Shown piece after piece: positions 2,800 through 58,247 of a DNA stretch of 64,000 nucleotides; within the stretch, counting starts at the first letter, position 1; each line of letters begins with the position of its first letter. Under the pieces are notes generated by a model. That model did no database searches and was not told the origin of the DNA. It saw nothing but the letters and a program-made list of their open reading frames with translations. The translations under genes were made by a program, and so were the position numbers. Source of the DNA: Urechis unicinctus (taxonomy: Eukaryota; Annelida; Polychaeta; Xenopneusta; Urechidae); NCBI GenBank assembly GCA_034190875.2, contig CM067351.1, positions 4,644,926 to 4,708,925 of the forward strand, read 5' to 3'.

Positions 2800-3075
2800 A
2801 TTTTTCATTTTCGTTTTGCGCGGTTTTACGCTGTTTGCTGAACAATTTGAAAGGCAAACTATTCATCATGTGTCTGATTGCGCCATATAGGAGTCAAGTT
2901 GTGTATAAATGGCAAACGCATTTATTGACCTTGTTCAGCATACGATATTCGGACGCTAAAGCCGGTAATTTCCTCTTGACATAATTTCTTGACCTGTTTT
3001 GCTTAACAAAAGCTCAACATACAAATGGGTTGCTTTTGTCTCATTGATAAAAAAACTATGCGCATGGGATTGTGT

Positions 3076-4029
3076 ATTATTGCTTCCCTAAAGCAGGGTG
3101 TCGGATATCAAATAGCCCCAGTATTAAGGCACACATAGCGCAAACAAGCAAGCCTGAACGGATCAAACGAGCGAACTCCTACGACATTGACGCAGAGTGA
3201 GTAACGATGGGGTCAGCACGATGCCATATGTTGGAGACCAGATATGTTAGTGATTGAGGAGCGGGTCCATTTTATGCTCTTTTATGCTGTAATTCAGTGC
3301 AATCGTTCACATCGTCTCCAAATGTTTTGCATCTGTAGCACTAGTATTAACATGAACTGGTTAACCAATATCTTATTAAATCTACGTGGTTCATTTTATT
3401 AAGAAAACCCGTCTGGCGCGCATAAAGACATTTTACAACAGCTACAGATTGGAGTACCTGGAAATCATAAGCTCACATCATGTGACCTCCAGCTTGTTTT
3501 TGCGACTGATTTTCCAGGTCGATTGTTCGCCTCGTCTTGATTCCTAATTGCTACACATATTCCCTACAGAGTTGAAAAACTCTGAATGTTCCAATCATTT
3601 CAATATAGTCGCAGCAGCTTGACGGCACAATTTTATTTCATCTCTCGTATTTGTATTTGTATCAGTTCACAGCAGATGTCAGGTGGAGACATTCTTCTGT
3701 CAATACTTTAAATAGTTACATTTAAGGTCATTTCAGAGTCACAAAGTGCTATTGTCTTTAAACAATGATGTAGTTGGGAAAATTTGTGTCATGTTAAACA
3801 TTTAGCACTTTTTGTACTTTTAGCGGAAAAGATAAGTTAGGTAAAGCATCAATATAAATCTCTTCTAATCCAAAAGTTTCAAAATGTAAATAACTCTAGC
3901 AGCACTTATCGGATCCGTTAATTTCTGTTTGACATTTATACTTATTTCAAATCGAACGCTGGTGAAATAGAACGATGTTCTGTATTCAAGTTTTGTGATG
4001 AGCCACGGTAATCTTTGGATAAAAGTAAT
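3076..4029. other. Left-arm-only insertion, about 950 bp
   Basis: In R the sequence matching both sides is joined near 57,960, so this block is extra in L, or less likely lost from R. I saw no terminal repeats, clear target duplication or coding relic in it. Confidence 0.55.
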
Positions 4030-4779
4030 AACATGACGGATGCTTACAAAAATATTTAGCTGTGTCAGAAGCAAATAGTGACACCTTATATGGATAGTAA
4101 CGCGGGATACCAACCATCACTACACATGTTACATTGTAAGGCATTGAAGCACAGACTTAATGCGGTGTAAATCTTTGCCAAATCCATTAACAAGTACAAG
4201 GTATTTGGCCGAATCAACCAACGGAATTTAATTAACATAGATTAAGGCATTGCTGCCAAATTATATAAAAAAAAGATACTGTCTGTAATATGGCTATCGA
4301 CATACGCAACGACTGAACCATGAATATTGATGGAAACATAATACACACAGTATCAACGACGACTAAGTTTGGGCTGATAGGTTGACTAATTTTTTACCAT
4401 AAGTACAAGAATTAGTTGTTGTTCAAGTGTATGTAGCCCATGGTTATCTGTATGAACCAATAGTGAATATTTGGCATTTGCTTTATAGGCCAGCATATTC
4501 ATCAAGTGCATTTCCACTTACCCGTCACATATCGAGGAGCTTACAAAGGCACAACGGCTAACTTATGATTCAATATGGCTATTATGGCAGACTGGTACAC
4601 CTATTGGGTTTTGCTTTATGCCTATCAAAGTCACCAGGACTTTTGTGTGCGTTCCAGTTGGTTTAATGCTTGTCAACGGCCTAATGAAAGATGATTCGAT
4701 CAGGGAAGATTCTGTATGATGGTTGATATCAATTACATGGCAAGGAAGGATATCATTTCATCTCGTAGCAGTAAACACT

Positions 4780-5475
4780 TCATTTGCAAAATATTCAAAA
4801 GAACCACGACAACGATATCGTTCGAAGGCATGGCGGTTAATGCTTGTTTATAAAGGGTGATCATGATAGTTAATCTATCATTATAATCTGTATGCCCTTT
4901 ATTTTGATTTGTTGAGTGATGTTGATTTAAAGAGTGTCAAGGCCAAGAAGGCCGTTTGGTCCATAGACACTTTGTTCTGGAAGATACAATTGTTTAGTAG
5001 TTGGTAAATCTAGTCAAAATGTTACTAAAATTAAACTTGTCCGTGTTAATCGCCAGTTTAAGTATTAGAACAAATAGAAGTTACATAACCACGGTAGTTC
5101 TTTCACAAGGTTAGGGAGGGGTTGATTTGGTGCGAATGCTTTGTTGGTCGATATTCGCCGTGGTTTAATGGTTTCATATTTATCGTTCCCACGCTCTCGC
5201 CGTTAGGTTCTCTTACTGGCTGTTTGGATCGTGAAATTTCGTCAGTGAATGCTGATGCAAAGTATTAGCTAGTCAAGTCTTCCTTTACTTTGTATTATAA
5301 AATGAGAGATTTGTTCAGTTCCCAAAAAGCGAACTCTCAACCAAAACAAATGCAAGATGTCACCGACCCGCAGCTGTCTAAACTCTGCCCATGCCAGTCT
5401 CTGCGACTTCGCAATGTTATTAAATTGCGTTTATTCGATCCCCTGATCAGATGCGTTTTGTTGCGATCTATGTGC
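4780..5475 (+). repeat. Direct duplication D, copy 1 in L
   Basis: Aligns with 9,680-10,765 in the same orientation. Shared landmarks are GGCCGTTTGGTCCATAGAC-like and GTCTGTGCGACTTCGCAATG-like segments, found here near 4,945 and 5,396 and in copy 2 near 10,173 and 10,653. Copy 1 lacks about 350 bp that copy 2 has at 9,810-10,160. The reverse complements are at 56,250-57,140 and 52,650-53,290. Confidence 0.85.
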
Positions 5476-8400
5476 AAAGAAAAAGACAGGTTGATAATGA
5501 TCATGGCTGATCACAGCTGATCGAACGAACGCTGAGGTGTAAAAGTTCAGTCCCGCCTCTCCCCTCAAACATTTTATTTTCACCATTTACACAACTGTAT
5601 TTCGCTCCATGTGAACATATATTCATTGTCTTGCGCATCATAACAAAGACGTAAGCAAATCAAAATGCTGCGTTATTTATTAGTCAATCGTACAAAGTTA
5701 GTGGAAATGGTCTACATATGATATGTTACATACATGGTCGCCGACGCATTCCGATAGTGACGAGTGCAATTGTTGAACATTTGCTCTTGCCCGGGTAAAT
5801 AGGTCTGCTTATAGTAAACATGACATATTGCTCGGATGCTTACAAATGTTATGTAATAGGTATTGATGGAAGCATGATGGACCAAACCAATCTAATTACG
5901 TCGACGAGGACATGCGGTAATAGCATGTTAATTGACGGCACAAATTGCGCGAACTCTCGAGCGCAGTCTAAATAAGAGGTGAATTATGTTTCTTAACAAC
6001 GGGTAACTGACTTATTGCGTAAAGTTTCGTACTATTGATTCGTTGCGACATAAATTACATATGTCCGCAACAATGATCTTTCACGTAATATTCGTCTACG
6101 TGTAGCAGTTTCTAGGTCACAGATCTATAAGCTAAGCTGACAATATATATTTCTCTTTACCGAGCGATTGAGTGAGAGTTCAGATTCGCTGTCACGCCTA
6201 CAGATAACGGAGCATGCGACAACCAGTTAAGAAAACTGTCTTGAACTTTAAAAAGTCGACAAGATGATTGTGCGAGATACACACATCTGGAATAGCATTT
6301 ATGTTATATTGCTAACAGTATTTGAACACTTCCTGCTTCTCTCAAAGCCTGTCAAGCAAGACGACTTAAAGTATTACCCAATGATAATAGACTGACTCAA
6401 GACTGGCACACTACTGATATCAGATTGCTCGCCATCGCCACCTGACGTTTGTCAAAACAGCCAAAGACCAAAACAACATATGTTCCACCTAAAAGCGCTA
6501 CGGTGGATTTACTGAGGGAAATGGAGGTTGGATGGGAAGTGCACATAGGTGCATGCGAATACATAATCGTCCAGTATTAAGGTTGGATGCCTCAGAATCG
6601 GACGATTGAAGATAACGTAGCTGCATCATTTGATATCCGTTTTCTCCCGAGTTGATGCTGTATTTACTGCGCATCATCTGCTTGGGATACTATATATTTC
6701 TGAAGGCAAAACGTTGTCAGTGCCGTGTTTTTCTGGCCAACGCATTAACCATCGTATTTATTTGGAATATGGAACGAAGCATTTATAACGCTGGATGTAA
6801 TTTATTACTCGACATAAGTGGTTTAAATCGAAGATACGAGGAAACTTCACAAGGCAAATTGTGATTTTCTATTTCAGGAAACACACCCAGCTATAGCTAA
6901 ATAATGAATGCAGTTGCAAGAAAGCCGTAAAAAATGGATGATATCAGTTGGAAATTTTTACGACAGACCATAAAAAAGCAAATATAATGCAAGGTGCTAT
7001 TAATGATCATTATATTTTATTTGGATAGTTTGAAAATATGTAATCACAATCATAAAGTACGGAAATGTACGTATCTATAGCTACCTGCAGAAACTGGTTT
7101 CCTAATAAAATTTACATAGTCTGTCATAATATGGAAAGGGGATAAGACGTAAATAAAGTTGAATTCATATTGATATTCAAGAACATTCATTTCCATCTCT
7201 GCAGACTGGCTTTAGGCTTGGGCTTCTCCTGTTTCCTCGCTAACATATATTCCCCTTCATTACTGACACTCGATATTGCACGTGTTGGCACGAAATAGTG
7301 GAAAGGTTATCTACATTCCCGAATGCAAGCAAAGTAATTACACCCATACAACCACAGGCCAAGGGCGAGGTCCAGTTGATATTAACCGATTCGCGGAGAA
7401 GAAAACATCATCTGCGTGCTTAAAACCAAACAGGGACTCAAATTAACCACTAACCTGCTACTACAAATAGTGAGCATTGTGCGACTTGACGAGTCTGGTA
7501 TGGGCTACCATGGTGCAAACCTACTATATTAATAAGGATGTCGCTTTTGACTGAATGTACTGAGATGCCAGAACATACACTAGCTGAATTATTTCTTGAA
7601 TTATACTAGTCAAATTATCAGCCTAATTAGCGAATTGATCCTACTGATACTAATAAAGTGACGCAATGATGAGTCAACACCAAGCGTAGATGCCCGTTTG
7701 TCAAATATTGGAAATTCGATTAAGTCGCAGGAAAGTAAGTGCAAATAATTTCCCTGCCTCGTCTAATAAAGTAATGTACCATTACAAGTTATTTACCCGA
7801 CTTTGTGTTCAGGAAACCAAGACAAGCATCCATCAATGCATTCTCGTAACCGGCAGATCTTCACTTATTTTCTAATAATCAAGTTATTAAACTCTCAAAG
7901 GGCATGAACAATGCCGATACAGCGCGCTGTCATTTTGCACGCAAGCTTGCCGCTGATTGCGTTTGCTGCGCGCATACAATGGCTTTAAAACAAAAACATA
8001 GGAAACCGTGGGTTATGGTAATTCATTTTATTACGATTGTATCCATTTGTATTTTATGTATGTGAAGCCTTTGGAATTTCTTAAAAAATGTTCTTCACTC
8101 TATGGATTTCTTCATGGTGGCCATACGATTATGAGCCGCAGACCGCTTTCATCTTTTTCAAGACAACGCTCACTCATATTTGTAAAGCAGAAACAGTCAC
8201 TGTCAGTAAAAGCACAGGTACAATTTTTTTTTTCATATTGCAATGCTATCATATACAAAATTTTGCTGCTGTGCGCTTTTAATTTAGAAGATTTTAACAA
8301 AAGTGAATATCAAATTATCAGGGTCCCCTGGGAGGCGCTAGTTGTTGTTGCATACTTTCTAAACCATACTTAGATGTACACAAAAGCTATGACAATTCAA

Positions 8401-9679
8401 TGAAAAGTTTCCAAACCAAAGTAATGTTTTTCGCGACTGTGGTATATTTTGTTGCAAAGACGATACTCGCGGATTATTATACAAGCAGTACATATATGCT
8501 TTACACACATAGTGGAATCATAAATGGCGACTGTGTGTTTTTAGAAACCAGTTCTCATGTCTGTCTACCTGCAAAGGCATAGACGTGTGCAATACTTGCC
8601 ACAAAAAAGTAAAAAAGATAAAAATACCATTACCAATAGCAAATTACCCATTACATGCTTTGTATACTTAAACGCGATCCCCAAAAATCCACCTTGCATG
8701 TTTATTCGAAACTACCATTCCAATATCTCCTTGTCATGTAAGTGGTATGATGACTACGCCAGCCATATTGATCCCTGACAAGGCCTAACAACATTTTACT
8801 AGATCATTAAACGTTCGTCATGATCATCCCAACGACACAAAAAAGGACAATCTGACATCAAAACGACTTTGCCTGCTGCTATACAGTGTTGGTTACTTTG
8901 TTTGGATGACTGACCTTTTATGACTACATGCTTTTTCTCAGAAACCAAGTGAAATGAATGATGCAGTCGAATCTGGCTTCTCTTCTAGGGGTGATCAGCG
9001 AGCAATAAAAACTATAGTGCTGTATCTTCTTAAAATGAATGAGAGCTAGCCGTACTATAAAACACAGAAACCGCATTTGGTCAACTACGCCCTGATTTGA
9101 AAATCATGACACATGTAGACTAAAATATTAGCAATGAATAAAAAAAAATTATATCTTCCATGAGGGTGATTGCGAACACGACATGCTAAAATGAAATGTG
9201 ATCCTGGCGTATTCCTCACTAATCATTTGTAAAACTTCATAACCGACTGTCTGATTTGATTGACACATTTTCACTATTTACATAAAGTGTACTGCCAAGA
9301 AACAATAGGGAGCCGTACATAACCTTCAAACAAAATACCCATGGTGGGCAGCCGTTATTGCGTCAAGCAAATCCGATCCATATCCTCACCACCGATATGT
9401 AATACTTGTAATTATTATCAAAATGATTTGTCGTTATATATTGCGCTAAGTTATCAGTATGAAAACAATAGAAACGCATCGGTGCCAATCACAAACATAC
9501 CACGTATGTTTTCGGATGAAATGTTGCCTAAATTGTGCTGTCAAAACTATCTTCGCCTGGATAGCTGCATTAAACGTTTTATTCGCTGTTTTAACGGTAA
9601 GTGGACACATTTGGCTTTGTGTGATGTTTAATATCATTTACATTGGCAGGAAGCATAAAGTGTTCTGTCGTATCGGCAT
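5476..9679. other. L segment between D copies; non-coding
   Basis: Matches R in reverse complement over most of 5,520-8,600 (partner 53,570-56,220). The part at 8,620-9,680 has no clear counterpart, because the matching R stretch is only about 280 bp. The longest open frame here, at 8,008-8,373, is not kept in the mirror copy at 53,872-54,184, which has stops and indels. I therefore see no gene. Confidence 0.6.
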
Positions 9680-10765
9680 TAACTTCATTTGTAAAAACAT
9701 TCGAAAGGAATACGACTACAAGGCACGTCGAAATAATTATCGGTTGATGTTTGGTTATAATGGCGTTCATGATAGTAAATCAATAATTATAATCCGCAAG
9801 ACCGCCCAGGACGAGTGCACGGTTTGTGTATGCTCCTAACATCCGAACGTTGTAAAGTTGCGAAACAGCAGCATGTGTCAATGTCGAATGTTGTGCTATG
9901 AGTCTGTAATAGGAACCGTACTTCGCCCTAGCTTAACCAAGCCAACACAGAACGCACTGTAAATCTGATGCCATATACATCGCAGAATTGTATCGTAAAG
10001 CACAAAAGCTACACCTGTAATTCACGGACCATGGCAAACATACATTGCAATTGCAAGTTATCATGCTCTTATCCGAGGACCAATATCAATATTTACCATC
10101 AGGGAAAATTGGCTGATTATAACCACAAAAGGCGGTCACTTAATCTGGTTTGTAAGATGGTTAGCAAAAGGTCAAGAAGACCGTTTGGTCCATAGACGCC
10201 CTGTTCTGGAGGATACAGGTGCTTATGAGTTGGGAGATATGAATGTTATATTACGCACCACAATCCAGTTATAATGTTACTTGAATCTATTTTAGGTTTT
10301 TTCCGTTTAAAAAGACAGTTCAAATATTCTAACAGGTAAAAGTGACATTACCGAGGTTATTTCTTTCACGGGGTTCGGGAAAGAGTTATTCAGGTGCAGG
10401 ATGATTTGTTGGCTGACATTTGCCGTGATTTGATGGTATCATGTTTACCGTTTCCACACTCTCGGCGATATGTGATCTTATTGATCCCTTGGTTAGTTAA
10501 ATTTTGACAGGTAATGCTGATGCCAAGTATGAGTTAATTATGTCTTCCCTTTCTTTATATTTTGAAATAAGAGATTAGTTCGGTACCCAAATGCGAACTT
10601 CTTAACCAAAACATGGGCACGATGCTAATGACGCACTGCTGTGCAAACTCTGCATGTGCCAGTCTGTGCGACTTTGCAATGTTGTTGGTTATGATAATTC
10701 GAGACGGCTCCATTCCCTTGTGAGATATGTTTTGCTAATATCAATGTTGCCATCTATTAGCATTA
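9680..10765 (+). repeat. Direct duplication D, copy 2 in L
   Basis: Second copy of the D repeat. It keeps an internal segment (9,810-9,960) that is missing from copy 1 but present in R at 56,890-57,060. The duplication therefore existed, with this segment, before L and R were formed. Non-coding. Confidence 0.8.
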
Positions 10766-11409
10766 AAATTATCAGCAAAGTATTCATTGTGGTTTGAACG
10801 GTTTAGTTGGATGCAATTGTAGTGCGCCAGTTCAGTTTTCTAAATATAATACGCAAGGTTGTAGCCTTTCAAAAGCACTCGGTTTGGAGTCGCCTGATAG
10901 CTACAAAGTATGGCTTTCAGTAGAAGATGGGACAGAACAGAAGGATAGCTGCAAGGGGATAGAAGTTTATGCAGAATGGTATGAACGAAATTCAATTGCT
11001 ATAATTATCAGACAAATTTACATTTATTTAATCCCTAAAAGTCGATATCAGCATCATAATCATTTTCAGAGGGAGTAATAATATACTGTTGCGAAATATC
11101 ATTTAGTCGCTCAGCAACAAAGCTATCGTGTCTCATTGAAACTCAAAACGCGAGCAAAGTTTATCTGCTAACACTGCGCGAGATCTTGGCAGGCTGTACT
11201 GCTTTACAAACATTGCAAAGTTGTTTTCTCATGCAATATGCTTGCTTGTTCCGTAATCGGACACCTACAAACATAAATGAATCGAAACCAGATCAACTAA
11301 GCTGCTTCCCAAGTGATTTCTTTGATATGTTTGGCTTACCCGATTTTAAAGATTGAGATGTGATTATGGAATTTCATTATAAATATTACAATTCCTGTTG
11401 AATCAGTAC

Positions 11410-11918: not shown

Positions 11919-13364
11919 ACCGAGACGCATTAATCGCGATTGGAAAACCTATTTCCGTCTTGTAAATTCGATGTGTCCCCAATTACTCATCATGAATACA
12001 ATCGATCAAATGCCATGTCGAGCGAAGAGGAGGCGAATTAGCATCAAGCAATGCTAATATGGAGGAATATTGTGTCATTTCTACCAACTGTAGCCTCTTT
12101 GTGACACAATGCTATCTCCATTTCATTACCGATGCTTATTCTTGGAATATGTATACCACACATATAATTATGCTGCTGAATGAATATAGCGTCACATATG
12201 CAAAAAGTTTAATTGCTCACACTTTGTCCATGTTGTGATACCATGTTGAGTCTGGGACAATTAAGGTTAAGAATAGCAGTGAGATTACCTCTAGTTCTGC
12301 ACTGTTCGAATGTTTTCGATCTGCAATCGCATGACTCCTGATGATCAAGCATTGACACCTACAAGGTCATATATGCTAATCGTAGTTTCGATTATAATGT
12401 AGTGTCCTGTGTGGTGCATATCATTAGCATATAAAAAAACGTTGATGTAATCCTTTTATGCTTTTATCAATATGGCAGCCGTCTAAGTACTTATGAATGG
12501 CATCGATAATGACAAATTAATACTACTTTATATCGAAGAATTAAGTATGCCATTTATTAATCATAGAGCGCGTGTGAAATTGTATGTATCAAGTTTAAGA
12601 GCAATGTGAGCTGAATCTATTGCTTGCTTGCTCTAACATTAAGCACAGTCTACAGCAAAGGTTAATCAGGTGTGTAATTATTATAACTGCTATAAATTAA
12701 TCTGGATATAAGATTTGTTACGATGGTGGGAATCATAATAACCGCGTTTGGAGATCGTTCGGAAGCAATTCCGTCCTTTTCAAAAACAGCAGTCTGTATA
12801 TATGTATACGGCATGGCCGTGCTGGATAAAATTATTTATGGGACCGAATATTGTCAGACCTAGTTATCGTCTCCATTAATAACTCATAGCCATATTAGAA
12901 TCAAGTCGAATATGGATTTGTTTCTATTTAAAAACATATTTGATAATTATTGTTAACTGACATTAGTTAACTTGACATTTTTCGTCAAATGATCACGCCT
13001 AGAACACGAGGTGGCATATCCGTCATCTATTGACATTCCGTCATTATGTTGGATAGACAATTATATGCATCTAAAATGCGCAAATTTTACATGATTATTC
13101 ACAAATGACATTCCATAAGTGTCCACATATTTCCTCATAGAGCTGGCATGCATACTACGTTCAGGAAATGTATGGATTCTTATGCAATTTTACACACATT
13201 ATCCCAGTAGAAGGGTCCAGAAAAAGCATTATAAGCCAACACGATCGAAACGTATCTTTTCATTGACTCATCTAACATAATAGTGCATTAACAACAATGG
13301 ACCATACATTGGTAGTTTCTGCAATTTGGCATTCACTCGTCTTGTGGGCTATTGTAAATGGACG

Positions 13365-14900: not shown

Positions 14901-17160
14901 TCACTTGAATGAATAGTGATTGGTATTGTATATATGCATCTTGCCCATGATATCACAGTTATATGCCCTGGGGGATGGAATATGAATTACATGCTTACAT
15001 ATAACAAATAAAATCACGTCGTGCTACACGATGGACAGGGCACAACTGGAATATTTACCTGGCAAATGAATGTTTGTTAGTCCATGGGAACTACGACCAA
15101 AATGGAATTCATATTGTTCAAATGTAGAGGCCGAATTGAATACTTGGTATGCATGGCTGTTCGTTTTGACATTATGTTTATAATAGAAATGTGCGTATTC
15201 TAATCCATTTACGCTGAATTACTATTGCAGTAAATATCTGATTTGGAACACTGGACTAGCGTAAAGAAATATATGCTCTAGCTCTGTGACTATTTTAGAA
15301 TAGCGATCAATATACGTTTGTAGCATGTTTGCAATTCAAGAAATATGCAGGCTTTTTTGGGTTGATTGCAATGTAGTGTTTGTTGACTTGCATACCATTT
15401 GCATGATATTTGCATTAAATAAATGCCGTAATATTTATAGAAGATAAAATATCATTATCAGGGCCGTGTTATTGCTTACACACTACTCAGCAATATACTA
15501 AACCAATAGCCTCTATAGTGCTAATTTGCTTGAAATGCTATTATAACGGAGATGTGACGTGCGGATAAAATAATTGTATATAGCTCAACATACACTAGTA
15601 TCAAATTGCGGAATCAACACATTATCAACAACGCTAACTGTGTATGATATCTGTGTAGATGACCTTATTCTGGTCCTTTCAATTATTTTTTTCCAACGAG
15701 CAGGTGAAGCAAAAGGCCGAAATGTATTTATTTTTGTGACCACAGCTTAACACTGCTAAACGTATATATTGCAAAACAGCTAGATGGAATCCACACTCAG
15801 TCGAACAATCCGTTATTGGCATGAAGACGAATGAGCTTTCTGATGCTCATATCTTGCTCTAATAGTATTATACAGTACTTGTTTTATCGTGTAGGTTGCA
15901 TGTTAACTATTGCGTTGGAAGAACTGCAGAAGTGCTTCGTGCAAAGTGTTCTAAAATATTCTTTACTTATTGCATTGTATCGTAACAGTCACATGTCTAA
16001 GGCCGCCAAGAACAGTGATGCTTATGATGAACAGCTTAGGAATTTCGTATTCTAGAAACATGGAATTTAGTGAAGACGAGAGAGATTGACAACTGGCTGT
16101 TACCCTCCCCTCATTGCATAACATTAATCTCCCGATCGATATTTGGTAAGTTGGTGCAATAATGTTTAGCTACAGAATGTAGAGATCATCCTTGCGAAGC
16201 ACCAATAAATGCATTATTTGGATATCACTAGGGTATATATTTTTGAGTTTTAACAGTAACAAATGGTGCGTTATATTGCAAGAATTAATTTGACTGCTTG
16301 ATTCTCTACTCGGTGTAGGCACCACATCACGCTAAAATCTCGTTAGTTTTGCGTGTAAAAGCATTTCGTATTCAATGAACGATCCATCTCATATCATTCT
16401 TCAAGCATCTTCCTGGGGATGTAGTTTATTGAAACTGTCATGAAGGTAGTTGGACAGGACTTGTGGGAGCAAATGCATCCACCTCATCGAATGGCAACTA
16501 CCTCATATGACCTGGGTTTGAAAGCTAAGCAATTATTTATATCATTGCAGTATCGGGCATGAACCTACTTCGCAGACATTTCGATTTAGTGCACCCAAAT
16601 TTAACGCGATTTAGTGTACGAAATGAATCCTTGGATCACCTGGTTTTGCCGCGCACATTAATGCTGATGTATCCTAATTGGCATGACGCACCAATATATT
16701 ATGGACTGTAATATAACTTTGTAATGTGGATTATCGTTAGCATCTGTTCAACAGTATGCCAAAGAATCATAACCGCGATATTTGAAAGCCCACCTTGCTG
16801 TATAGTTTCTGTACAATTAATATACAATCCATGTACCAGAAGTTAAGGCACAGATAAAGACCCTGGTGTGAAATATTAAGTTTCATTATGCATAAAGTAA
16901 TTATTCGATGATATGCCACATCAACCAAGTCAGCTGTAACAAATGGCGGGTTGTAGTAAATGTTCTACAGCTTGACACAAATGAACTAACTTACACATTT
17001 CTAGCCGTTCAGTGAGTACATAAATTCAATAGCAAAGAGGAAGAAGCAAAGTGCCCTTTATTTGTCGAAAGGCGAAATAGATTGGGTTGATGCTAATTGA
17101 CGTGGTCTGGGCGTTCCTTAAGGTCTCCGAATGCTTTGGAACCCCCGCGGAGCTCTCTGG

Positions 17161-17169
17161 TGACGTCAT
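17161..17169. promoter_or_regulatory. CRE-like palindrome TGACGTCAT
   Basis: A perfect TGACGTCA core lies in a local GC-rich patch just outside the left terminal repeat of the 17.2-20.25 kb element. The same nine bases occur in the leader of the P2X7-like gene at 47,503-47,511. Function is inferred from motif identity only. Confidence 0.25.
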
Positions 17170-17221
17170 TGGACACACTGGTCGTTTCTCCAGCACAGTA
17201 AGGCCTTTATTAAGCCGCGGA

Positions 17222-17285
17222 CTGACCGGAGAAGTACAAAGTACGTACTTCGTTCCCAGTACGGCGCACCTCGATTGAGGTACAT
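17222..17285 (+). repeat. Left terminal inverted repeat of 17.2-20.25 kb element
   Basis: Pairs with 20,160-20,240. It contains the self-complementary core AAGTACGTACTT, so each terminus is also a small palindrome. Confidence 0.6.
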
Positions 17286-18071
17286 ATGAAAGTCGTGCCC
17301 CCGCCCTCTGCTGTTTTGCATTTTATGAAATGTGATTGGCTTTGAACGATTTAATTATGCAAGTATATTATGGCCTACATTGGGAACCAAATCTGTTGTT
17401 GTGAGCGATATCGGGCGTTCACTAGAAGAGTTTTCACTTCCATTATTCGACAGTGACTGCAAGTGTTTCGACGTTCATGGTTAAATTTTTTTACACGCAT
17501 CAACATGGCAGAGGTAAGGTCTATGTTTTCTGATATAATGGCGTATTGATGCGTTCGTACATAAATCGAAGTAGTGTGTACTTCCTTTTGAATTGGTGCC
17601 ATAGTCTGATAGTAGATCGTATACAGATACAAGATTGACACTTATGGCTCATACGAACGAACCGCAGGTCGAATGTAGCCTTTCCTGGTGGTGTTCTTAT
17701 ACAAGATAACTTGTTTTTTAGAAATTTGAAACCTCGTACTTGTGAAGTCACATAGGCCCCTCTGACGGTAGTATACATATGAATCAACAAAACGTCGTGC
17801 ACGGCTTGAAGTGACAAGGTCAATAATTTCCACCTAATATGATTTGGTCTGTTAGTAGAGGGTGATATAAAAATCTCACAAGAATTGCTGGTTTGTGTTG
17901 TGAACTTAAACAATGATTATAATATTTAATGTTATGTATTTGACTAGACAGTGTCTGAATTACTTAGCTTTTTTCCCAGAATTGAACAGCTATTGGCCAT
18001 GCCATTTTTAAAACAGTCTGCATTGTAAAGCCTTCATTCACAATGAGGATGTTCGGAAACAGGAAACCTGA

Positions 18072-18305
18072 AATCCAAATTTCAAAGTGGTGTCTAAGAA
18101 AAACTGTTGGATTTGGTTGGAAAAAAAGAATCTGTCCATTACACAAAAACTGCTCCTCTGTCAATCATGCAATGACGAAGTCGATGAAATATATCCAGAC
18201 TTGAACATTCCTTCAGTCCGTGCAGCCGCCTTCCAAGCCGCTGAAAGTTTCAACTCTCTCAATGAAGAAGCTATTCCTGGGACGGGTGTACCAGGTCTCG
18301 CCTGA
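18072..18305 (+). CDS. Possible terminal exon, unknown protein
   Basis: An open tract of about 78 codons ends in TGA at 18,303-18,305 and is followed at once by AATAAA (18,309-18,314), which suits a last exon with a polyadenylation signal. The peptide has a CQSC motif, then an acidic and alanine-rich tail (DEIYPDLNIP, then VRAAAFQAAE). An acceptor-like AG lies at 18,086-18,087. I do not recognise the family. The opposite strand of the same DNA (18,213-18,498) is equally open, so the two readings compete and at most one is likely to be real. It lies inside the inverted-terminus element and has no copy in the window for comparison. Confidence 0.25.
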   Translation, partial: NPNFKVVSKKNCWIWLEKKNLSITQKLLLCQSCNDEVDEIYPDLNIPSVRAAAFQAAESFNSLNEEAIPGTGVPGLA

Positions 18306-18498
18306 ACAATAAACCCATCTTTTATTGCTCTCGTCTATATACTCAACCACAATATTTCCCTCACACCGCCGAACAAGTTCATAGGACTTTGTGCATATTA
18401 TCCTCTTCCTATCGTTTCTGCTCTCGCGGCATTCAGTACCATCAGATATGTATGCATTAGGTATTTTACCGGGTGGTGTTTCCACTTTTGACCTCTGA
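18213..18498 (-). CDS. Competing antisense open tract, unknown protein
   Basis: On the minus strand an acceptor-like pyrimidine stretch ending TTTCAG (18,499-18,504) opens a frame of about 95 codons that ends at 18,213. The peptide is hydrophilic, with segments such as RRCEGNIVVEYIDESNKRW. The amino-acid composition looks protein-like, but no domain is recognised. It overlaps the plus-strand tract ending at 18,305. I list it because the two antisense frames cannot be separated by reading alone. Confidence 0.2.
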
Positions 18499-22909: not shown

Positions 22910-23538
<629 letters not shown>

Positions 23539-36783: not shown

Positions 36784-36817
<34 letters not shown>

Positions 36818-41100: not shown

Positions 41101-41165
41101 CGGCGAACAGTTCGAACTTTTCTTCCGGAAGCGTCTGGTTTTTCATTGTTTCTCGGGAGGAGACA

Positions 41166-41435: not shown

Positions 41436-41981
41436 CGCACTGTTTAAAAGATTATGTGGTTTACCCAGATAGATAATGAGGCCCCCACCAACCAACGCGG
41501 TGAAAATAAGTGGTGTATAAATATTTATCTAGAAATTCATTCCGCGTGAAAGAATCAGCAGCATTAGAGTAACTAAGCTTATCTTTTAATAAAATAATGC
41601 AACATTGGTATCCGAAACCCCTTAACCAGTATAACTGCTTGGATTAGCACATTAAAGCTAGATATTTATTTTATCTATAATATCGTTCTGTTTACAAAAA
41701 CTTTGTCCTGATTTTCCGGATCTGGAGACATTGTTTTTTTGCAAATCGCAGAACTTGCAGTGTCTATCTAAGAGTATTCGCCGTGCTAATAGTTTCACTT
41801 AGTTAATGAATTACACATATTTCACACTAGTGGCATGGAATCCTGCAACGCTACGTGTTGGTTTCCGACATTGTAGGAGCCAGCCGTCGTGGAGAAAGCA
41901 GTATATGCAGAAGCAATGAAAAGAAACCCAACCATAGGATATTTGTAATTTGGCACATGATTGCGAATAGTAATTTGTCTA

Positions 41982-42071
41982 CATGAGATTCGTGATGGGA
42001 GTGCAGAACGACTCGCCAATACCGACCGTCTAAGGCACATGTTACTAAGGCGCATGGAAATCATCGTTTGA
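41982..42071 (+). pseudogene. Arginine-rich peptide tract in A'
   Basis: A short plus-strand frame reads HEIRDGSAERLAN, then TDRLRHMLLRRME, and stops at 42,069-42,071. After the stop the same frame goes on with AGDRARIAPE. The spacing of R, L and E resembles the repeated EERxxRLxxxRxRxxxRR tracts seen in proteins of several invertebrate mobile elements. A'' carries nearly the same peptide at 62,874-62,963, ending at the same stop. There is no start codon context. Low confidence. Confidence 0.3.
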
Positions 42072-44132
42072 CTTGCAGGTGATCGTGCCAGGATTGCGCC
42101 TGAATGATTACAATATGTGGATTACGTGGGTTCACTCAGGCTTGCTATGTTGTGAATATTTCCATTTGTGAACTGCACACCCATCGTAGCGCTTAACATT
42201 ATAATATACACATGAGAACATACCAGTCGAGACAGAACTGTTATATTTCGAATTTCGTGTTGTCGGATGCAATCAATGTGTTATATAATTTGAAGGTCAT
42301 CCTCTACAATTAATTATATTTATTTTATTCAATTATATTCACACAATCAAAATTCATGTCTTACGCATGCTAAGTGATGCGTATTCGTCCACAAGCGTTT
42401 ATAGTCACGCAATTATTAGCTAACATATGTACCAGTGATCATTCTGGTGATGTGGTACGGTAAGTGAGGAATTAGATACTATACTAGGTAGGCAGCATTA
42501 CTCCTTCATACGAGTGACAGGTTATATTTCAATGATTGTTCTTTTACAATGATTACATAGCATGGCTGAAATACTATCCAATGAATTTTGAAATTTGAAT
42601 CACCTCATTCTACTGATGACTTCCTGTTGACGTTACTTTTATGGCTGCCACGGTGGTCGCACCTCCTGCACGATTCGTGCTTTATCATTCATACAGACCT
42701 TTTCAATGTCTGCTATCGACAGGTATGCGCAGCCGCAGCAGCACACCAACCCACACTTCCGCGTACAAAACGGAAATTAGAATCATGAGAGAATGTATGT
42801 CCTTAAACAAAACGGCTATGCTCACGATTGCACAGATAGACGGCGCCAATGAAGTACTTTATAAAACCAAAGAGAAGATATGATTTTCTTGATACGCTAG
42901 ACTAATATTCTGTAACGTTGGTATCCTTGTATTTACTAGATAAAAATGTGGGCAACGATCATGGCATCAACTAGTGCATGACGTGGACGCTTAGATAGCT
43001 TCCAAATCTAGTGGGAATGCAAATGGATGTTATCGGTTTTTATGAGAAATAATGGAGTGGTAATCACACAATGGTTTCCATAGGTTACTTATCCATACTA
43101 TAACAATATTGAAAAAAGCGTTGGTTGTCAAATCATAGGCAAATAACTAACAGGCTTATTTTATGCAATGGTTAGTTTCATATGTGTTTCGCTGATCAAA
43201 TTCATTATACATAGAGTCCAAGATTTAATTGGCTAACCTGTCTTTAGTAAACTAACATTAGCGGGTAATATGGTGCTTACGAGAGGAAGGCACGGACAGG
43301 CTCTTTGGAATGAACAATTAATCACAAATTTTCGTCAAGCATATACAGGACTGATAGACTTATTTATATTCAACAAGAGATTCCCGCTAGGCACTAGACT
43401 TTGCAATACGCATAGGTAATTGCGAGTAGTGCGATCATCAAATCCATTTTTTTTAAACATGGTAAATGCTTGTACCATGTCTCTGTCACTGGGCGATGTC
43501 ATAATGCCCATCAGCGTTGCTAAATGCAGAGCACATACAAGAACGTTTGAGTATACAGTATCGGTTATATTTGGCTAAAATCGACAAGCTATATATATAA
43601 GGATTATGCCCTCTGACAGAAGGCATTAGATAGGAAATTGATCTCTTTATTGGCGTGTACAGCAAATAGAACCTCGATGGCAAATTGTTTGTCACTTTTT
43701 ATTCCTCTTGAATACTTTTGTCTTCTAAAGGTCGTCCACGAATGGTAAAGATACTCATTAATCCGTACAGATCTAACTTTTTTTTGCCTATATATATTTG
43801 CGTATTTTTGTGAAATAATGATATTTTGAAATAATTTTTAATCAGAATGGATTATGAAAATAATATTTGTCGTAGATGTGGTCATTAAGAACGACTGGAA
43901 GCGTTTAGCGATCTAATTTGTTCGTGTAGATTGATAAATAATGACACAAAGTAGAGTTTTCGGTGATAAAATTTTGAATTCAATCAAATCAGTTGATATC
44001 AAATATACAAAAACTCATGTTTAAATATTATTTCGACATTTGGGTCAATGCATATATGGTTGCAGGTACGAAATCTTTTCAAACATTTTGGATTAAATGT
44101 GCATTGCTCTTATGTGGAAATAGTGGTTTATT

Positions 44133-44158: not shown

Positions 44159-47100
44159 GTTGGCGGTTTGTCTATTAAAGGTCGCGTTCGTGCTTACCCG
44201 TGTTGCAGTGCCATTCTGGAAATTCGGCTCGCTCGTAAGCGATATGTACCTATTTGTCAATCCAAAGTATTAGCCAAATAACAGGAAACTTTCCAACAAG
44301 TAATGGGATCAACTAATGTATACAAACAGCTAATAAAGGTCAAGGGCGGCAGAGACATTCAGGCTAATTTGTGAGAATGTACAAATAGTGGGCAGCTATA
44401 GCGCGTCAATTCACCTCATGTGCGTCGAACCGAATTTGGAAGTATTATCTCTCAACTAAGGCGCAAATCAATCTATGCAGGGTTCGAAAAAGCAAGTCCG
44501 ATTGATATTCTTATTCCCGTTTGTAATTTGCGCTTATCGTCTGATCATACACACTGATTGTAATAACTAATATACAGCAAATGCTCAACCATCCAGTTAA
44601 GCTGCTTTATTAAGCTCATGGCAATTATTCGAATGAAATATTCTGTCGCTGCAAATGAAAGGACGACGTGTTTCAAGCTCCAAACATTGTCCTAAACATT
44701 CTACCAGCAATGATGTGCTCGGTACCCAGCCCGATTTTACTAACGACATGCAGGACATGAATGACTATTCAAGACGAACCTCGGCGAATCATTGCTTCAG
44801 GACTATTGAATCATCCGAGATCCTAGATATGACGTCAAATAGTGGTTTTAATACTATTTTGGTATGCTGAAGTCCAGTTAAATTGATTCTTGATACGTTT
44901 GATGTACAATCTTAGTTACAGGAGTGAACAGAATATCAAGAAAGGAACGATATTTTATTTGCTACACGTAGGCTATGCATATTTTGATAGATTAAGGGTA
45001 CAAATCAATTACTTGGTTATGCCTAATACCATGCATAGCCGAAACTAAACTACTGGCAGTTTTTTTCAATAAGCACCCACGCCGTTCACTAGTATTGGTC
45101 GTAAGGGAATTACCAATGATCCAATTAAATCATACAATTAGACTTAAAATTTCTCCCTTCTCTTAGCGGCGTGAATATAGCATGAGGTTAACGACCCAAT
45201 ATACCTTCTATTGGATGAGCGTCAAGGCAACAGGGTTAGTTACATTGTAAACAACCAAACAATCTTAACTCGGATTCCCAAACAAAATTGAGGATCTTGA
45301 CCGCAATGAAGTGGCAGTCGAAATTCAAAAACTTATAATCTGCTTAGAATTTCGAACTTATTGGTTTTATCGGCTATATGATGCCTATGAAATATATATT
45401 ATCGATCAACATCTTGATGTTGCAATCCTTTGCAGGCTATTTTGGCAGTGATCCACTACTCAGCCCTATACAATGCGCATACCCTAATGCTCCTGTACGT
45501 TGCCAGGGGAATGATGTGAATTATTACTGTATTGAATTGAACACTCTACATGATCTATGCTAAATCATTGATTAGTTTAATTGTCTGTAATTGTGACACC
45601 AAAGGCCAAAGTAATAGCATTTGGATTGTTGTTACACAGCAGTCGCAGGCGCAAAACTAATTCCCGTGTGTAATTATAGACATTCATATCATATCAAAGT
45701 TTCCCATTACATCCAGGAGAAGTGCGTCTTCCCATGTTCCCAAAAAACGCAATTACTCCACGGTGCAAGAGTTGGCAGAATTAAACTAAGCTGTTTATCA
45801 TAAGCATCATTGTTCTTGACAGCAATTAGACATATGACTGTTGCCTTACTATGCATTAAGTAAAGAATGGGTCAGAAAACTTTGCACGAAGCAATTCCGA
45901 AGCAATTCCATCGCAATGTATAACATTCAACCTACACGATTAAAAGTACTGTATAATATACTACTAGAGTAAGATACAAGCATCAGAAAAATGTTAAGCT
46001 GTGGTCACGAAAATGAATACATTTCGGCTCGTAGCAAGAAATAATTGAAAGGACCAGAATAACGTCAACTACACAGTTATAATGTTGATAATGTGTTGAC
46101 TCCGCAATATGATGCTAGTGTATACTGAGCTTAATACAATTATTTGATCCGCACATAACATCTCCGTTATTATAGCATATCTAGCAAATTATATGTAAAG
46201 ACACAGCTATATAGGCTATGTAAGCACGTACACGGCCTTGATAATGATATATTATCTTATATAAACATTACGGCATTCAATTACTGACAATATCGTACAA
46301 ATGGTGTGCAAGTTAACAAGGTCTATATGGCAATCAACAACAAAAAATGCCTACATATTTCTTGAATTGAAAACATGCTACAATCGTATATTGATCGCTA
46401 TTCTAATATAGTCACAGAGCTAGAGCATATGTTTCTTTACGTTAGTCCAGTGGTACCAATCAGATATTTATTTTCCGCAATAGTAATTCAGCATAAATGG
46501 ATTAGAATACGCACATTTCTATTATAAACATAATGTAAAACGAAGAGCCATGCATACCAAGCATTGAATTTGGCCTCTACATTTGAAGGCAGTGAATTCT
46601 ATTTTTGTCGTAGTTCCTATAGACTAGCAAACATTCATTTGCCGGGTAAATACTCCAGTTGGGATCTGTCCATCGTCAGGCACGACATGGTATTATTTGT
46701 TCATATGTAAGCATTTTAAGTCATATTCCATCCCCGGGTCATATAAGTGTGATATCATGAGCAAGGTGCATATATCCAATACCAATCACTCTAGATGGCC
46801 GCCTTGTATTTGCAAGTATTATTAGTTAATGAAAATGGTCAACGAAATGGGATGTGCTGAGATCGCGTCAGCTTATTAGGTCACCCATTGGCAATGCTCG
46901 CAATTTCATGCAGTCCCAGAACGTTTGTCGGTTTGGTGTTACCACAGATAGAAAAATAAACAATAAATCATTCCATTGTCACAAAAGGTTGCTGCATTTA
47001 TCGGACATTAGTAGGGTCGCATGATATGGGCTAGGCGCAAATTACAAAGTGGACTAAAATCGCACATGGAATATCTATTTTGCTCCTCATGAAGTGCAAG

Positions 47101-47296
47101 TAAGCGCCTGCCTAAACTGCCGATTGTACCGATGCGAAAGAACATTAATATAGCACACAAGACGAGTGAATGCATAATTACAGAAACTACCAATTTAGGG
47201 TCCATTGGTGTTAATGCACTATTGTGTTTTATTTGAACGTAAAGATACGCTTCAAATGTGCGCTTCTACTGGGATAATTTGTGTAAAATTGCTCAA

Positions 47297-47318
47297 GTGT
47301 CAGCTACAACGATTTTCA
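47297..47318 (+). repeat. Left terminal inverted repeat of Kolobok-type element
   Basis: GTGTCAGCTACAACGATTTT matches AGGTCAACTACAAAGATTTT at the right end with four mismatches. Confidence 0.7.
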
Positions 47319-47502
47319 TCATTTCTTTATAATGTGTTTCAAATTGAAGATTAATAATTCATAAATCAACGGGGACCCATAATTCATTGCAACGGCATGC
47401 ATAAGTACAAAAAATCCACCGATAAGGTTTCATTCGGAAGAAAATACGAAGCCATCTTTTCAATGCCATTTTGCCTCAGTTGGCCGCTAGGTGCACGTTG
47501 CG

Positions 47503-47511
47503 TGACGTCAT
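47503..47511. promoter_or_regulatory. CRE-like TGACGTCAT upstream of P2X7-like gene
   Basis: Lies about 100 bp before the ATG at 47,608, in a GC-richer leader that also has a short GCGA repeat near 47,547-47,566. This would be a fitting promoter position, but no TATA box is evident. Confidence 0.3.
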
Positions 47512-47607
47512 TCCTGCTGCGCTGCCTCCAAGAGAATTTGACTGCGAGCGAGCGAGCGAAGCGAAAAACGATTGTTTGGATTTTAAAATTACACCATTTT
47601 GACAAGC

Positions 47608-48692
47608 CATGTCGTCTTCTGATGAAGTTTACGAGTCCCCATAGCATAACATTGGGGCAAATCATGTCCATGACTATTTATTTGAGCCAATACGGACGGG
47701 AGTTGAACAATCCAAGTCACACTACGTATGACACCGGGAGCTCTAAGTCTAACTCAAGGGTCCGCTTCGGATGAAGAATCAACAAAAGATTTCGACGAAT
47801 GGTAAGTTTTAGAATACCTTCCCAAGCTTTATTGAACTATATTAACTGGTAAAAAATAATCGTTAGTTTCATTTACCCAATAAATTTACACATTCTGTAA
47901 GTTGAGGATGGTATGTTGACAGACCTAACTACTACAACAAAAATAGTACTTGGCTAGTGAATGTAGCTTTGTCATTGTACCCTGAGCACATTGAATATTG
48001 TGGACAGATGTTTGCATGCAGTTTATAAAGTATTTTCCTTTTATATTCATTCATTGTACCACAAATATAAATTTACAATGACTCTTTAATTATTTCTCTA
48101 ACTTAGGTGTAGATGTCATTACTGCATCACAATGGACACAGCCACAGAAGTTTGGAGAGAGTGATGGCTCTAACGGAGGAATGGACATGCATCATCAAGC
48201 ATCCCAGATTCCTGGCTAGCTGCATGAATAAAAATGTGATGGAAGTGTCCAAATTTGAATCTATTCAAATGGACAGACCTGTTGGAGATGAGGTCTCTAC
48301 AATGGGTTAGTGAGCCATTACTGCTACCAAAAAGGATGGTTTGAGGTTGAACAATCATATTTATTACAAAGGGAACATTAATTCCACTGTGTAAAATATT
48401 CAGTGTTCATATTGATGAACTACAATATATTTTACATAGCCAAGAATAAATAATGCCAGTTACATGAAATCCAGAGGCAGAGCTTACAATAAAATTATGA
48501 AGTGAGGGAATGGTTGACAAATGACAATTGTTTTTTTAACTTATTTTAAAACCATAGACAACTAATTGACATATTGCTTCAGATTATTCAGGTATCTAGC
48601 TTACCGCCAGTCTACAAACAGGAAAGTGCTGGCAGCCTGTGTGGCTACAGCTGTTAGAAAATCCTTCCCTGACCCGGGCGGCAAATATACAG
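47608..48692 (+). pseudogene. P2X7 C-terminus-like zinc-binding protein, 3 exons
   Basis: Exon 1 (47,608 to about 47,811) codes for an acidic N-terminus ending GSASDEESTKDFDEW, with the donor inside the W codon (TG|GTAAG). Exon 2 starts at 48,107 after TAACTTAG and gives CRCHYC, M and T, the start of the CxCxxCxxMxT zinc-ribbon known from the intracellular C-terminus of P2X7 receptors and from many invertebrate proteins of unknown role. CIIKHPRF and SCMNKNVMEV follow. Exon 3 (48,583-48,692) gives FRYLAYRQ, then a basic stretch, FPDPGGKYTG, and a donor at 48,693. The gene is dead: a stop at codon 12, a frameshift in exon 1, and a stop with frameshift after TATEVWRE in exon 2. The later cysteine pair is lost. 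I infer it is cargo or an accessory gene of the surrounding transposon. Confidence 0.7.
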
Positions 48693-49069
48693 GTTAGCTA
48701 CAATGGAACGGAAGATTTCTTGGTCAGGTTGAATCGACACCTGTGAGCACCTACGAGAAGATCCTTTTCAGGTTTCTCGTACTGAGAGGCAATAGGTGGT
48801 GGGACAGTCCTGTGATCTGCAAGGACCTCAGCAAGTCTGTAGCTTGGGTATTTTTGCCTTAGATCAAGCACCTGATGTACATAGTCTGAAGCAAATCAAT
48901 GATATTCATATTTTATGATAGTCATATAATAAGTAAGTTATATTATATGCCAATTTTTAATTGGGTAACAATGTTTGTGCAAATGAAACTTATTCAGGTT
49001 TTGGTAATAAATGTCAAAATAACATGTGTTTCATTTTAGATTAATGCATGTTCACACCAAAAGAAATTG

Positions 49070-50227
49070 TTACTTTGACAGACTTGGGAATTTCCCATAC
49101 CTGAACATGTTCAGTGTTCTAATAGCACTACTGCCACTAACAAAAATCCCTGAAGCCATAAACAAATTCCATGCGGGCATAGCTCCTATAAAAAGTTGGC
49201 AATCCCACATCTTACGGTGTCCATTCACGCCGATTTGTTCAAAACCAGCAAAACTCCCCCGGTATTTTTGATTCTGACTAGGGCCATCCTCCAGATCAAC
49301 ACCACTGTACATAAGCATTCTGTGAGCTAAATTTTTCTTCCATCAAATAAAACCCTGTGATTACACTACAAACAAAACAATATTTACCTAACAGTTCTTC
49401 AAACGCCATGTCATCATCAGTTTCCATCTCAGCATCATCACTTCGTCAGTTAAGTCATAGACAGGGTCAGTTTCCATCTCATCATCGCTGTCCACCAGTC
49501 CAACAGATTCCTCCTGGGGCTCATATTGGGTGCCCCTGGTGACACTTTTGGTGAGATGGGCCAACTTAGGTACCTCTTGAATATTTCTTTATCCCAGGAA
49601 AGATAGAACTCTGTGTCTGTAGACACTTGTTAGCCATCTATGGTATCAATACAATAAGTATGCTACAATTTCATTCATCACAGCCTTTAAGAATGTAAAT
49701 GTTTACAAATTGACTCTGAAAAGACACATGGATACATACAACAGAAGTTATTCCTGCCAATGCATTTCATCATATATAATAATGCAGTTGCCTTGTGACA
49801 CTCACCAAAACATTTGCCTGCACCCCTAATGACAAGTGAGAGCAAGCTTCATGGTCGGCAAACGGCAAGCACACTCGCCCTGGTGTAGCCTAGGTCAGCA
49901 GTACTTGAGTGTGACACCTCAGTCTGTGATTCATCACTGTCACTTGATTTATCTATCTGCTCAGCTGCCAATACCATTTCGGAGCCTAGGTTTCTTACGA
50001 AATCCTAGACTTTTGAGCAGCTCTGGGTCAGTCTCATAAGCACTTTTCTCGAAATGATCAGAACATAGAACTGTCGTATAACTATAACTTATAGTATAAG
50101 GGCAGGACTCCAGTGTTTACGCTTGACTTTCGACAGCCATATGCGGCGCATATGTCTTTTAGAAACAAAACAAAATCACGCCTGACTTTTCATTGTTCCG
50201 ACAACCAAACGCACAACAATAAGGCAT
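49070..50227 (-). pseudogene. THAP-domain transposase of Kolobok type, 5' part
   Basis: On the minus strand the gene starts at 50,227 with MPYCCAFGCRNN, the N-terminal C2 pair of a THAP zinc finger. WLSKVKRKHWSPAL, LCSDHF and LLKSLGFRKKPRL follow, down to about 49,985, in order but across frameshifts. Then come an acidic serine-rich linker (SSDSDESQTEVSHSS), a second exon (about 49,534-49,388, with VDSDDEMETD and DDDMAFEELLG, donor GTAAAT) and a third (from 49,326, acceptor AATTTAG) with MPAWNLFMASGIFVSGSS. That last motif is typical of the N-terminal region of these transposases. Homology ends near 49,070 at a stop, and the catalytic domain is absent. The element is therefore non-autonomous and the gene a pseudogene. 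Confidence 0.75.
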
Positions 50228-50504
50228 AATCCACCCCAAGAAACGCACCAGACCGTGAAGAAAGACGAGTTAGTCACACGCTGTTAACCAACCGGGAAGG
50301 CTAAAGATGGCGATGAATATTCGCAAACAACCTAAATGACGTTACTGTACGGAAATTCACGAATTTTACCGAGCGGTATCTTGTCAGATTCGACGTGGGA
50401 AATATACATTTAAAAATCATTTTTCTTAAAGAAAAAAAGCGCGCAGTCACCTTTTTTGGTCACGATACCCTTTTAAAACATAGAAATTTGGTAAAATGGA
50501 ATAA

Positions 50505-50530
50505 AAAAAATCTTTGTAGTTGACCTTTAA
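50505..50530 (-). repeat. Right terminal inverted repeat and TTAA target
   Basis: The inverted terminus ends at 50,526 and TTAA occupies 50,527-50,530. R/L homology resumes at once with GAATCCATTC. Confidence 0.75.
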
Positions 50531-56249: not shown

Positions 56250-57140
56250 ATTGATAGCAATAAAACGCATCTGACTTGGGGATTGAGATATCTCGAATAA
56301 CCGTAATCAATAACTTTGCTAAGTAGCAGAGACTGGCACTGGCAGAGTTTAGACAGCTGTGCGTCGGTTACATCTTACATATGTTTTAGTTGAGAGTTTG
56401 CATTTGGGTACGAGACTAATCTCGTATTTTATAATACAAAGAAAAGGAAAACTTGACTAGCTATTACTTTGTATCAGCATTCACTGACGAAATTCCACGT
56501 TCCAAATGGCCAGTAAGATTACCTAACGGCGAGAGCGTGGGAACGATAAACATGAAACCATTAAACCACGGCGAATGTCGACCAACAAAGCATCCGCAGC
56601 AAATCAACTCCTCCCGAACCTTGTGAAAGAACTACCGCGGTTATGTCAATTTGCTCTAATACTTAAACTGTCGATAAACACGGAAAAGTTTAATTTTAGT
56701 AACATTTTAACAGGATTTCCCAACACCTAAGCAATTGTATCTTCCAGAACAAGGCGTCTATGGACCAAACGGCCTTCTTGGCATTGACACCCTTTCAATC
56801 AACATCACTCAACAAATCCAATAAAATTTCCCGAGCTTAACTGAACCAACCTATTAATCCAGACGATAAATATTGATTTTGGTCCTCGCATGAAAGCATG
56901 ATATCCATGGTATCAGATGACAGGATGTCCTCTGCTTGCTTACGTGAAGCACAGTTTCTATCACAGACGCATAGCACAACGTTCAAAAATGACACGTGCT
57001 GCTGCTTTAAAAACTTTATTATGTTCGGATGTTGGGACCATACACAAACCATGTACTCGTCCAGGGCTGTCTTACAGATTATAATGATTGATTAACGTTC
57101 GTGAGCACCCTTTATAAACAAGCATTAACCGCTAATTGTT
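56250..57140 (-). repeat. D duplication copy in R (partner of 4,780-5,475)
   Basis: Reverse complement of D copy 1, with the AACAAGGCGTCTATGGACC segment near 56,750. It also keeps, at 56,890-57,060, the segment that L retains only in D copy 2. Confidence 0.8.
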
Positions 57141-58247
57141 TCGTCGTGCCTTAGAACGATATCGTTGTTGTAGTCCTATTTATTATTTTGCAAATAAAGG
57201 GTATACCTTGCCATGTATGTGATATGAACCATCATACTGAACCTTCCCTGATCGATTCATCTTTCAAAAGACCGTTGGCAAGCCTTTAACCAATTGGAAT
57301 GCACGAAAAGGTCCTAGTGACTTTAATAGGCATAAAGCAAAACAAAATAGGTGTACTAGTTCTGCCCTTATAGCCATATTGAATCATCAGGTAGCCGTTT
57401 TGTCTTGGTGAGCTCCTCAATATGTGACGGGAAAGTGGAAATGAATTTGATTGATATGCTGGCCTATAAAGCAAATGCCAAATATTCACTATTGGTTCAT
57501 ACAGATAACTAATACAACTAATTGTAGTACTTATGGTAAAAATAAGTCATCCTATCAGCCCATACTGAGTCGTTCTTTGATAATGTGTATATTATGTTTG
57601 CACCAACAATCATGGTTCAGTCGTTGTGTATGTCGATGGCCATATTACAGACAGTATTATTTCCTTTTGTATAATTTGGCGGCGATGCGTTAATCTATAT
57701 TGATTAAATTCCGTTGGTTGATTTGGCCAAATACGTTATAATTGTTAATAGATTTGGTAAAGAATTACACCGCATTAAGTCTGTGCCTTCATGCCTTACA
57801 ATGTAACAAGTGTAGTGATGGTTGGTATCCCGCGTTACAAATCATATAAAGTGTTAAGCGTACCAAGATTCATTTATAATGACATTCGGCTTTATGCTGC
57901 AAACACTATTTGCTACTGACACAGCTTAACATTTTTGCAAGCATCCGTCATGTTTTACACAATCTCATACGTATAGTTTTTTATCAATGAGACGAAAGCA
58001 ACCCATTTATATGTGGCGATTTCGTTAAGCAAACACAGGTCAAGAACATCTGTCAGAAAGTAATTACTGGCTTTAAGGTCCGAATATCGTATCCTGCACA
58101 AGGTCATTGAATGCGTTTTCCATTAATACATCACTTGCCACATGTTAAACCGTTCATCAATGTTTTGCAAGCAGACACATAATGAATAGTTTGCCTTGCA
58201 AATTGTTCAGCAAACAGCGCAAAACCGCACACTAGAAAATGAAAAAC

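Follow-up and report, generated by a model that had tools for sequence, protein, structure and literature searches.

The long inverted match described here is very probably one part of a local, mosaic cluster of segmental duplications, apparently non-coding, that occupies about 4.468-4.768 Mb of C10 and has a relative on C16. The window, which is the whole stretch of 64,000 nucleotides that was analyzed (C10:4644926-4708925, in a genome of 1,190,315,542 bases or ∼1.19 Gb), holds both arms of the match. It had been read in the initial annotation as an old inverted duplication. The arms are indeed inverted and old, and they do not belong to a dispersed family, but the idea of one event has to be given up because the two arms are only two among at least 12 partial copies in a cluster of ∼300 kb. 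This cluster is characterized by many partial copies of mixed age, an orientation switch spanned by the two arms, mosaic relationships, and adjacent head-to-tail units that are nearly identical. Judged from the sequence, the best reading is that it has grown by repeated tandem and inverted duplication and that, given pairs at 97-99% identity, it has been active recently. With less certainty, the duplicated sequence probably lacks any conserved product and is passively carried along, which is the simplest account because no product was detected.

A self-BLAST of the window, serving as the dot plot that had been proposed as a check, gave a long anti-diagonal. The left arm, A1 (2783-24480, a + unit of the cluster), pairs with the right arm, A2 (58265-44441, a - unit), through 13 strictly monotone, colinear inverted blocks, from the outermost (2783-3076 with 58265-57956) to the innermost (23528-24480 with 45368-44441). 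The ten or more anchor blocks originally noted over 13.8 kb of the right arm are confirmed as 13 blocks over 13,825 bp. The blocks total 9,332 bp within the 21,698 bp of A1 and 9,362 bp within the 13,825 bp of A2, and ten first-order Markov resamplings of the window produced no inverted hit at 1e-8. Block identity is 70-91% by BLAST, and identity per aligned base is 83-89% in seven MAFFT alignments. In the core block (5307-6464, +), which is present in many copies, A1 and A2 differ by ∼0.11 substitutions per site, in agreement with the old age first assigned to the pair. The arm lengths likewise bear out the remark that the match is far longer than a foldback element.

The homology of A1 to other copies reaches beyond the paired region, extending right to ∼25188 and left past the window start to C10:4644542. 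The unequal spans of the arms are mainly due to a 3.2-kb high-copy element in A2 (47299-50527) and to a 6.6-kb stretch of A1 (16040-22614) that is absent from A2. Pieces of this stretch are seen in other copies (16125-16880, 20390-21331, and 22075-22614), and therefore A2 probably lost them. Long TA-rich microsatellites lie at 22932-23257, inside A1, and at 36670-36870, near the center of the inverted pair.

Toward that center, the anti-diagonal is extended by a more diverged pair, 34069-36661 (-) and 40131-41376 (+), which involves a second duplicated segment. One copy of this segment, B1 (34069-36661, -), is inverted relative to two others, B2 (38585-43213, +), the inner neighbor of A2, and B3 (58928-64000, +), which reaches the window end. 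With B1 and B2 carrying the anti-diagonal inward, the center of the inverted match falls between ∼36.7 and 38.6 kb. B2 and B3 are direct copies of each other, a relationship that is missing from the initial annotation, as are the many copies outside the window, including a further one, B4, at C10:4721391-4726275. Between B1 and B2 lies a central segment (36867-38109, +). Direct copies of two of its pieces, 36867-37767 and 37875-38109, are present left of A1, at C10:4643561-4644465 and window positions 74-312, respectively.

To place the window in its surroundings, it was compared with 200 kb on its left (207 rows at E 1e-15) and ∼39 kb on its right, within a fetched region of 318 kb of which 20,000 bases are N. 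The interval of C10 between 4.468 and 4.768 Mb is filled with related copies whose likeness is ∼65-99%, the part past 4758156 being represented by search hits. Partial A copies run in + orientation from 4468157 up to A1, and the next ones rightward are in - orientation, so that A1 and A2 straddle the switch. To the right of the switch, A2 is followed by two further - copies, of which the first (4714254-4721245) is partial and the second (4731136-4747889) is longer and continues, still in - orientation, in 4748159-4750216. In this region the order B(+)A(-) occurs three times, as B2 with A2, B3 with the partial A, and B4 with the last A. The arrangement is also irregular in places, as + matches return from 4751306 and at 4766554, and 4637392-4638981 matches B and is also +.

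Among the 275,001 readable bases of 4468156-4758156, 204,154 have a counterpart elsewhere in the 318-kb region. The identities of the aligned bases grade without a break from 60-65% to 95-100%, about three-quarters of these bases being at 65-80% and 17,228 at 95% or more. In alignments longer than 800 bp, the most similar head-to-tail neighbors are ∼10.3 kb apart and match at 97.5% over 5.3 kb and at 98.8% over 5.0 kb. Neighbors ∼7-8 kb apart are 94-98% alike (for example, 3.4 kb at 97.7%, ∼7 kb apart), and those ∼22-23 kb apart are 90-94% alike (for example, 7.7 kb at 93.5%, ∼23 kb apart). Several cluster pairs of 1-8 kb, at 90-98.8%, therefore exceed the 1 kb and 90% identity by which segmental duplications are recognized, and A1/A2 itself falls below 90%.

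Whole-genome searches placed every scored candidate of three arm segments within C10 4.47-4.77 Mb or C16 59.08-59.12 Mb. For the core (5000-6500), all 21 candidates were scored, and its 29 matches comprise 26 on C10, counting the query itself, at 4468157-4746739, and three on C16 near 59.08-59.09 Mb. Segment 9450-12400 (27 of 27 scored) has 47, divided between C10 (36, to 4767549) and C16 (11, at 59082602-59120451). All 24 matches of the inner right arm (44441-46790; 20 of 20 candidates scored) are on C10, and the right arm is thus not scattered through the genome in hundreds of copies, a distribution that would have made the pair a chance meeting of insertions. For three other queries, 22000-25300, 34600-36650, and 40962-43213, the best 40 of 2228, 237, and 558 first-look candidates, respectively, were scored, and among the matches listed those beyond the cluster cover only short dispersed parts at ∼25185-25277, 34874-34982, and 40973-41739. 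Because the three arm segments were scored completely at two sites and the outside matches listed are confined to short parts, the arms are not a dispersed family. The search passes over very common words, so its repeat counts are lower bounds and a miss is no proof of absence. A dispersed repeat or foldback transposon, for which many scattered copies would be expected, was rejected on these results; the arms are long, low in copy number, and restricted to a few loci, as segmental duplications are.

Several mobile or dispersed sequences are embedded among the copies. A1 lacks the 3.2-kb element of A2 at the corresponding site, near 13182, and the insertion of this element most likely followed the split of A1 and A2. 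The element has 2001 first-look candidates, of which the best 40 were scored, and among the matches listed 18 extend over 7-3235 of the 3,235 query bases, with 93-95% identity. By eye, its ends are imperfect inverted sequences of ∼15 bp, and its four open reading frames (ORFs) gave no Pfam hit. The left spacer holds a decayed Ty3/gypsy-like LTR element (26931-30545, +), in which the integrase domains H2C2 and rve score over the Pfam cut-off, a gag-like ORF scores below it, no reverse transcriptase was found, and the LTR-like ends of ∼150 bp are 79% alike. Inside B2, 40973-41739 corresponds to a repeat that is dispersed throughout the genome (558 first-look candidates, best 40 scored), and a 93-bp dispersed repeat marks the right edge of the A1 homology at 25185-25277 (2228 first-look candidates for the whole query, best 40 scored).

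To the left of the window, C10:4523735-4529900 (L017:3735-9900) carries ORFs with YqaJ-like recombinase and DNA polymerase B domains, the latter DNA_pol_B_2 of the organellar or viral type. These domains point to the insertion of an element of virus-like or Polinton-like type within the cluster. Four ORFs of this element had no match in PHROGs. The observed/expected ratio of CpG is 0.69 in window positions 25189-34068 and 0.61 in 47293-50527, against 0.95 for shared window sequence, and it ranges over 0.82-1.27 in five further stretches that are not shared. The two low values may reflect transposon methylation.

Just left of the cluster there is a receptor gene on the - strand, two exons of which lie within C10:4460862-4463130 (L011:862-3130). 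Exon C10:4462774-4463130 matches positions 1-46 of the 7tm_1 profile (30.3 bits, against a cut-off of 30.5), and exon C10:4460862-4461920 matches positions 46-260. Among the best 60 of 594 matched sequences, the closest solved relatives are the 5-HT2C and 5-HT2A receptors; dopamine D2 is nearly as close. Given the strand of the gene and its position to the left, the cluster is on its 5′ side. A location of the cluster inside the gene, between TM2 and TM3, was rejected because the exon for profile positions 1-46 is outside the cluster.

Gene clusters can have a similar appearance, and an aminergic, 5-HT2-like receptor gene adjoins this one. The same cluster might therefore be a tandem family of protein genes whose exons are short or fast-changing, such that the visible homology is intron and flank. 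We consider this unlikely, and it would replace only the passive part of the preferred reading. Pfam scans covered the window and the left side of the cluster. The window list holds 248 ORFs of at least 57 aa, with TA-rich and window-end ORFs omitted; 233 of these matched nothing better than E 0.003, four giving single-member hits at E 0.003-0.01, and four more belong to the gypsy-like element. On the left side, 112 + 9 of 144 ORFs of at least 90 aa were scanned. Among the 112, only a receptor exon (7tm_1, outside the cluster) and the YqaJ ORF of the inserted element fall below E 0.001, and three more hits are at E 0.006-0.009. The nine scanned separately yielded 7tm_1 and DNA_pol_B_2, the YqaJ hit being located near the ORF of the latter. 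The seven weak single hits of the window and left side, all at E 0.003-0.01 (Innexin, THAP, DUF7234, Tudor_krimper_1st, Ost4, AtDEF-like, and NRP1_C), count to some extent for protein genes. These scans revealed no protein family that would account for the arms, just as the initial annotation had said.

Tests of coding signal also speak against protein genes. A codon-position rate test covered 8,750 windows to the left of the analyzed stretch and 1,741 within it and showed no clear signal (maximum t 4.3, with stops inside), and a column-shuffle test of seven A1 regions reached a maximum z of 3.7, with stops in most copies. None of 673 ORFs with at least four aligned copies is open throughout, the best being open in four of five. 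Moreover, the 318-kb region contains no copy of the larger receptor exon. A tandem array of protein genes with open reading frames conserved among its units was consequently rejected by the Pfam and codon tests, which are blind to short, fast-evolving exons under strong positive selection.

A second alternative is that the units are non-coding RNA genes or regulatory elements in an array, possibly including a hairpin RNA at 12059-12121. Of 177 windows screened with alifold, each against 25 shuffles, one had z -5.7 (8 copies) and another z -4.2 (9 copies). The former is the hairpin, which has 22 pairs in A1 and keeps 145 of 176 pair cells, compared with 46-98 when the partner is slid, although the structure was derived from A1 and this favors an A1-based score. 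Its arms are also more like A1 than are the flanks (0.85 vs. 0.79). On the other hand, 16-19 of the 22 pairs are kept in the seven other copies, and compensatory double changes occur in none of the 176 cells. Conservation among the copies is mild and not entirely even: their identity to the window, taken per 250 bp, is 68-88%, and some 30-bp stretches reach 92-95% across 5-12 copies; such peaks could be due to constraint. Known RNA families lend no support, as Rfam gave no hit in the window at the gathering threshold and, at E up to 1 in 4700-25300, only three chance-like mir-297 hits on TA repeats. A tRNA scan with bacterial settings found none. On these results, from screens that would miss transcripts lacking conserved structure, we regard an array of RNA or regulatory units as improbable. 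A more specific proposal, that the cluster is a lineage-specific array of such units 5′ of the 5-HT2-like receptor gene, expanding and flipping under selection, would be very unlikely.

The relationships among the copies bear on whether the arms are a single ancient inverted duplication, that is, a long palindrome that has since diverged. Two observations fit this scenario, namely the 13 colinear inverted blocks and the core tree, in which A1 and A2 are sisters (100/99). This tree was built from 13 rows in which 70% or more of 5700-6460 is present, with shorter pieces omitted, and is midpoint-rooted for drawing. It also sets A1, A2, C10:4745535, and a C16 copy opposite nine left-hand copies (95/96). 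A palindrome should have exactly two arms with one history, but at least 10 further core copies are local. Furthermore, A2 is the best match of A1 over most of 4.8-8.0 kb, but at 8.0-8.8 kb its place is taken by C10:4714-4716 kb and at 10.8-11.2 kb by C10:4739-4740 kb, and for several A1 segments A2 has no counterpart. Likewise, B1 groups with B3 and B4 rather than with B2 (98/94, 5 rows). These discrepancies make a single palindrome highly improbable.

Another tree agrees with a mosaic of pieces that have different histories. In this tree, of 8040-8585 (7 rows), A1 joins C10:4714769 with A2 outside, a grouping whose support of 90/89 is below the starred level. A1, A2, and a third right-hand copy appear in no resolved order in the trees of 10513-11300 (6 rows) and 12000-12370 (8 rows). 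In all four trees, the right-hand copies fall together on one side, and A1 and A2 are placed with them. Because the nearest relative of A1 switches along its length and B1 and B2 are not sisters, the arms look like the outcome of several events.

For a cluster that has grown by repeated duplication, established knowledge suggests that direct copies would arise by unequal crossing-over between tandem repeats. Inverted copies would come from at least one inversion, between inverted repeats, or from fold-back or template-switch events. Old copies would then decay through point changes, deletions, and transposon insertions.

Among known systems, macrosatellites of the DXZ4 type are similar in having kilobase-scale units repeated at one locus. 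They differ from the cluster, in which unit distances vary from ∼6 to 28 kb, copies are not homogenized, and orientation changes, and a macrosatellite of homogeneous, one-length, head-to-tail units was rejected. Macrosatellites such as DXZ4 are treated in PMC4199704. PMC4053137 gives the identity of human segmental duplications as usually >90%, whereas most aligned bases of the cluster, at 65-80%, are far below this value. Mosaic intrachromosomal segmental-duplication clusters (duplicons) are described for primates in PMC3747353. The C10 cluster shares with them its local, multi-copy nature, mosaic order, mixed orientation and age, transposons inside, and some copies above 90%, but no gene was found in its units. 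Fold-back and origin-dependent models describe single recent events with readable junctions. Neighboring long copies in inverted orientation are a point of likeness, but in the cluster junctions are eroded and several events overlap. PMC3907307 covers large inverted duplications by fold-back, and PMC4689423 covers origin-dependent inverted-repeat amplification.

The clustering of segmental duplications is a known route of genome growth to which this locus adds an example. The locus is not described in the literature found on such duplications, in a search that was not made by species and hence could hardly reach it. A long inverted match, however striking, can belong to a larger local cluster with many copies, and the surrounding genome should therefore be searched before such a match is called a single inverted duplication. 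With copies of all ages at one locus and no gene found, the cluster could serve the study of how non-coding segmental duplications start, flip, and decay.

A second, smaller site of related copies lies at C16:59082602-59120451 and, with the exception of one 4-kb locus, is represented by search hits. It contains - copies and three + copies at a spacing of ∼6.4-7.1 kb. An alignment of 4,083 columns between the C10 locus at 4.744-4.748 Mb and the C16 locus shows 96% identity, which indicates that this second site and the right end of the cluster have a recent common origin. After transfer from C10, the copies at this site were possibly amplified further.
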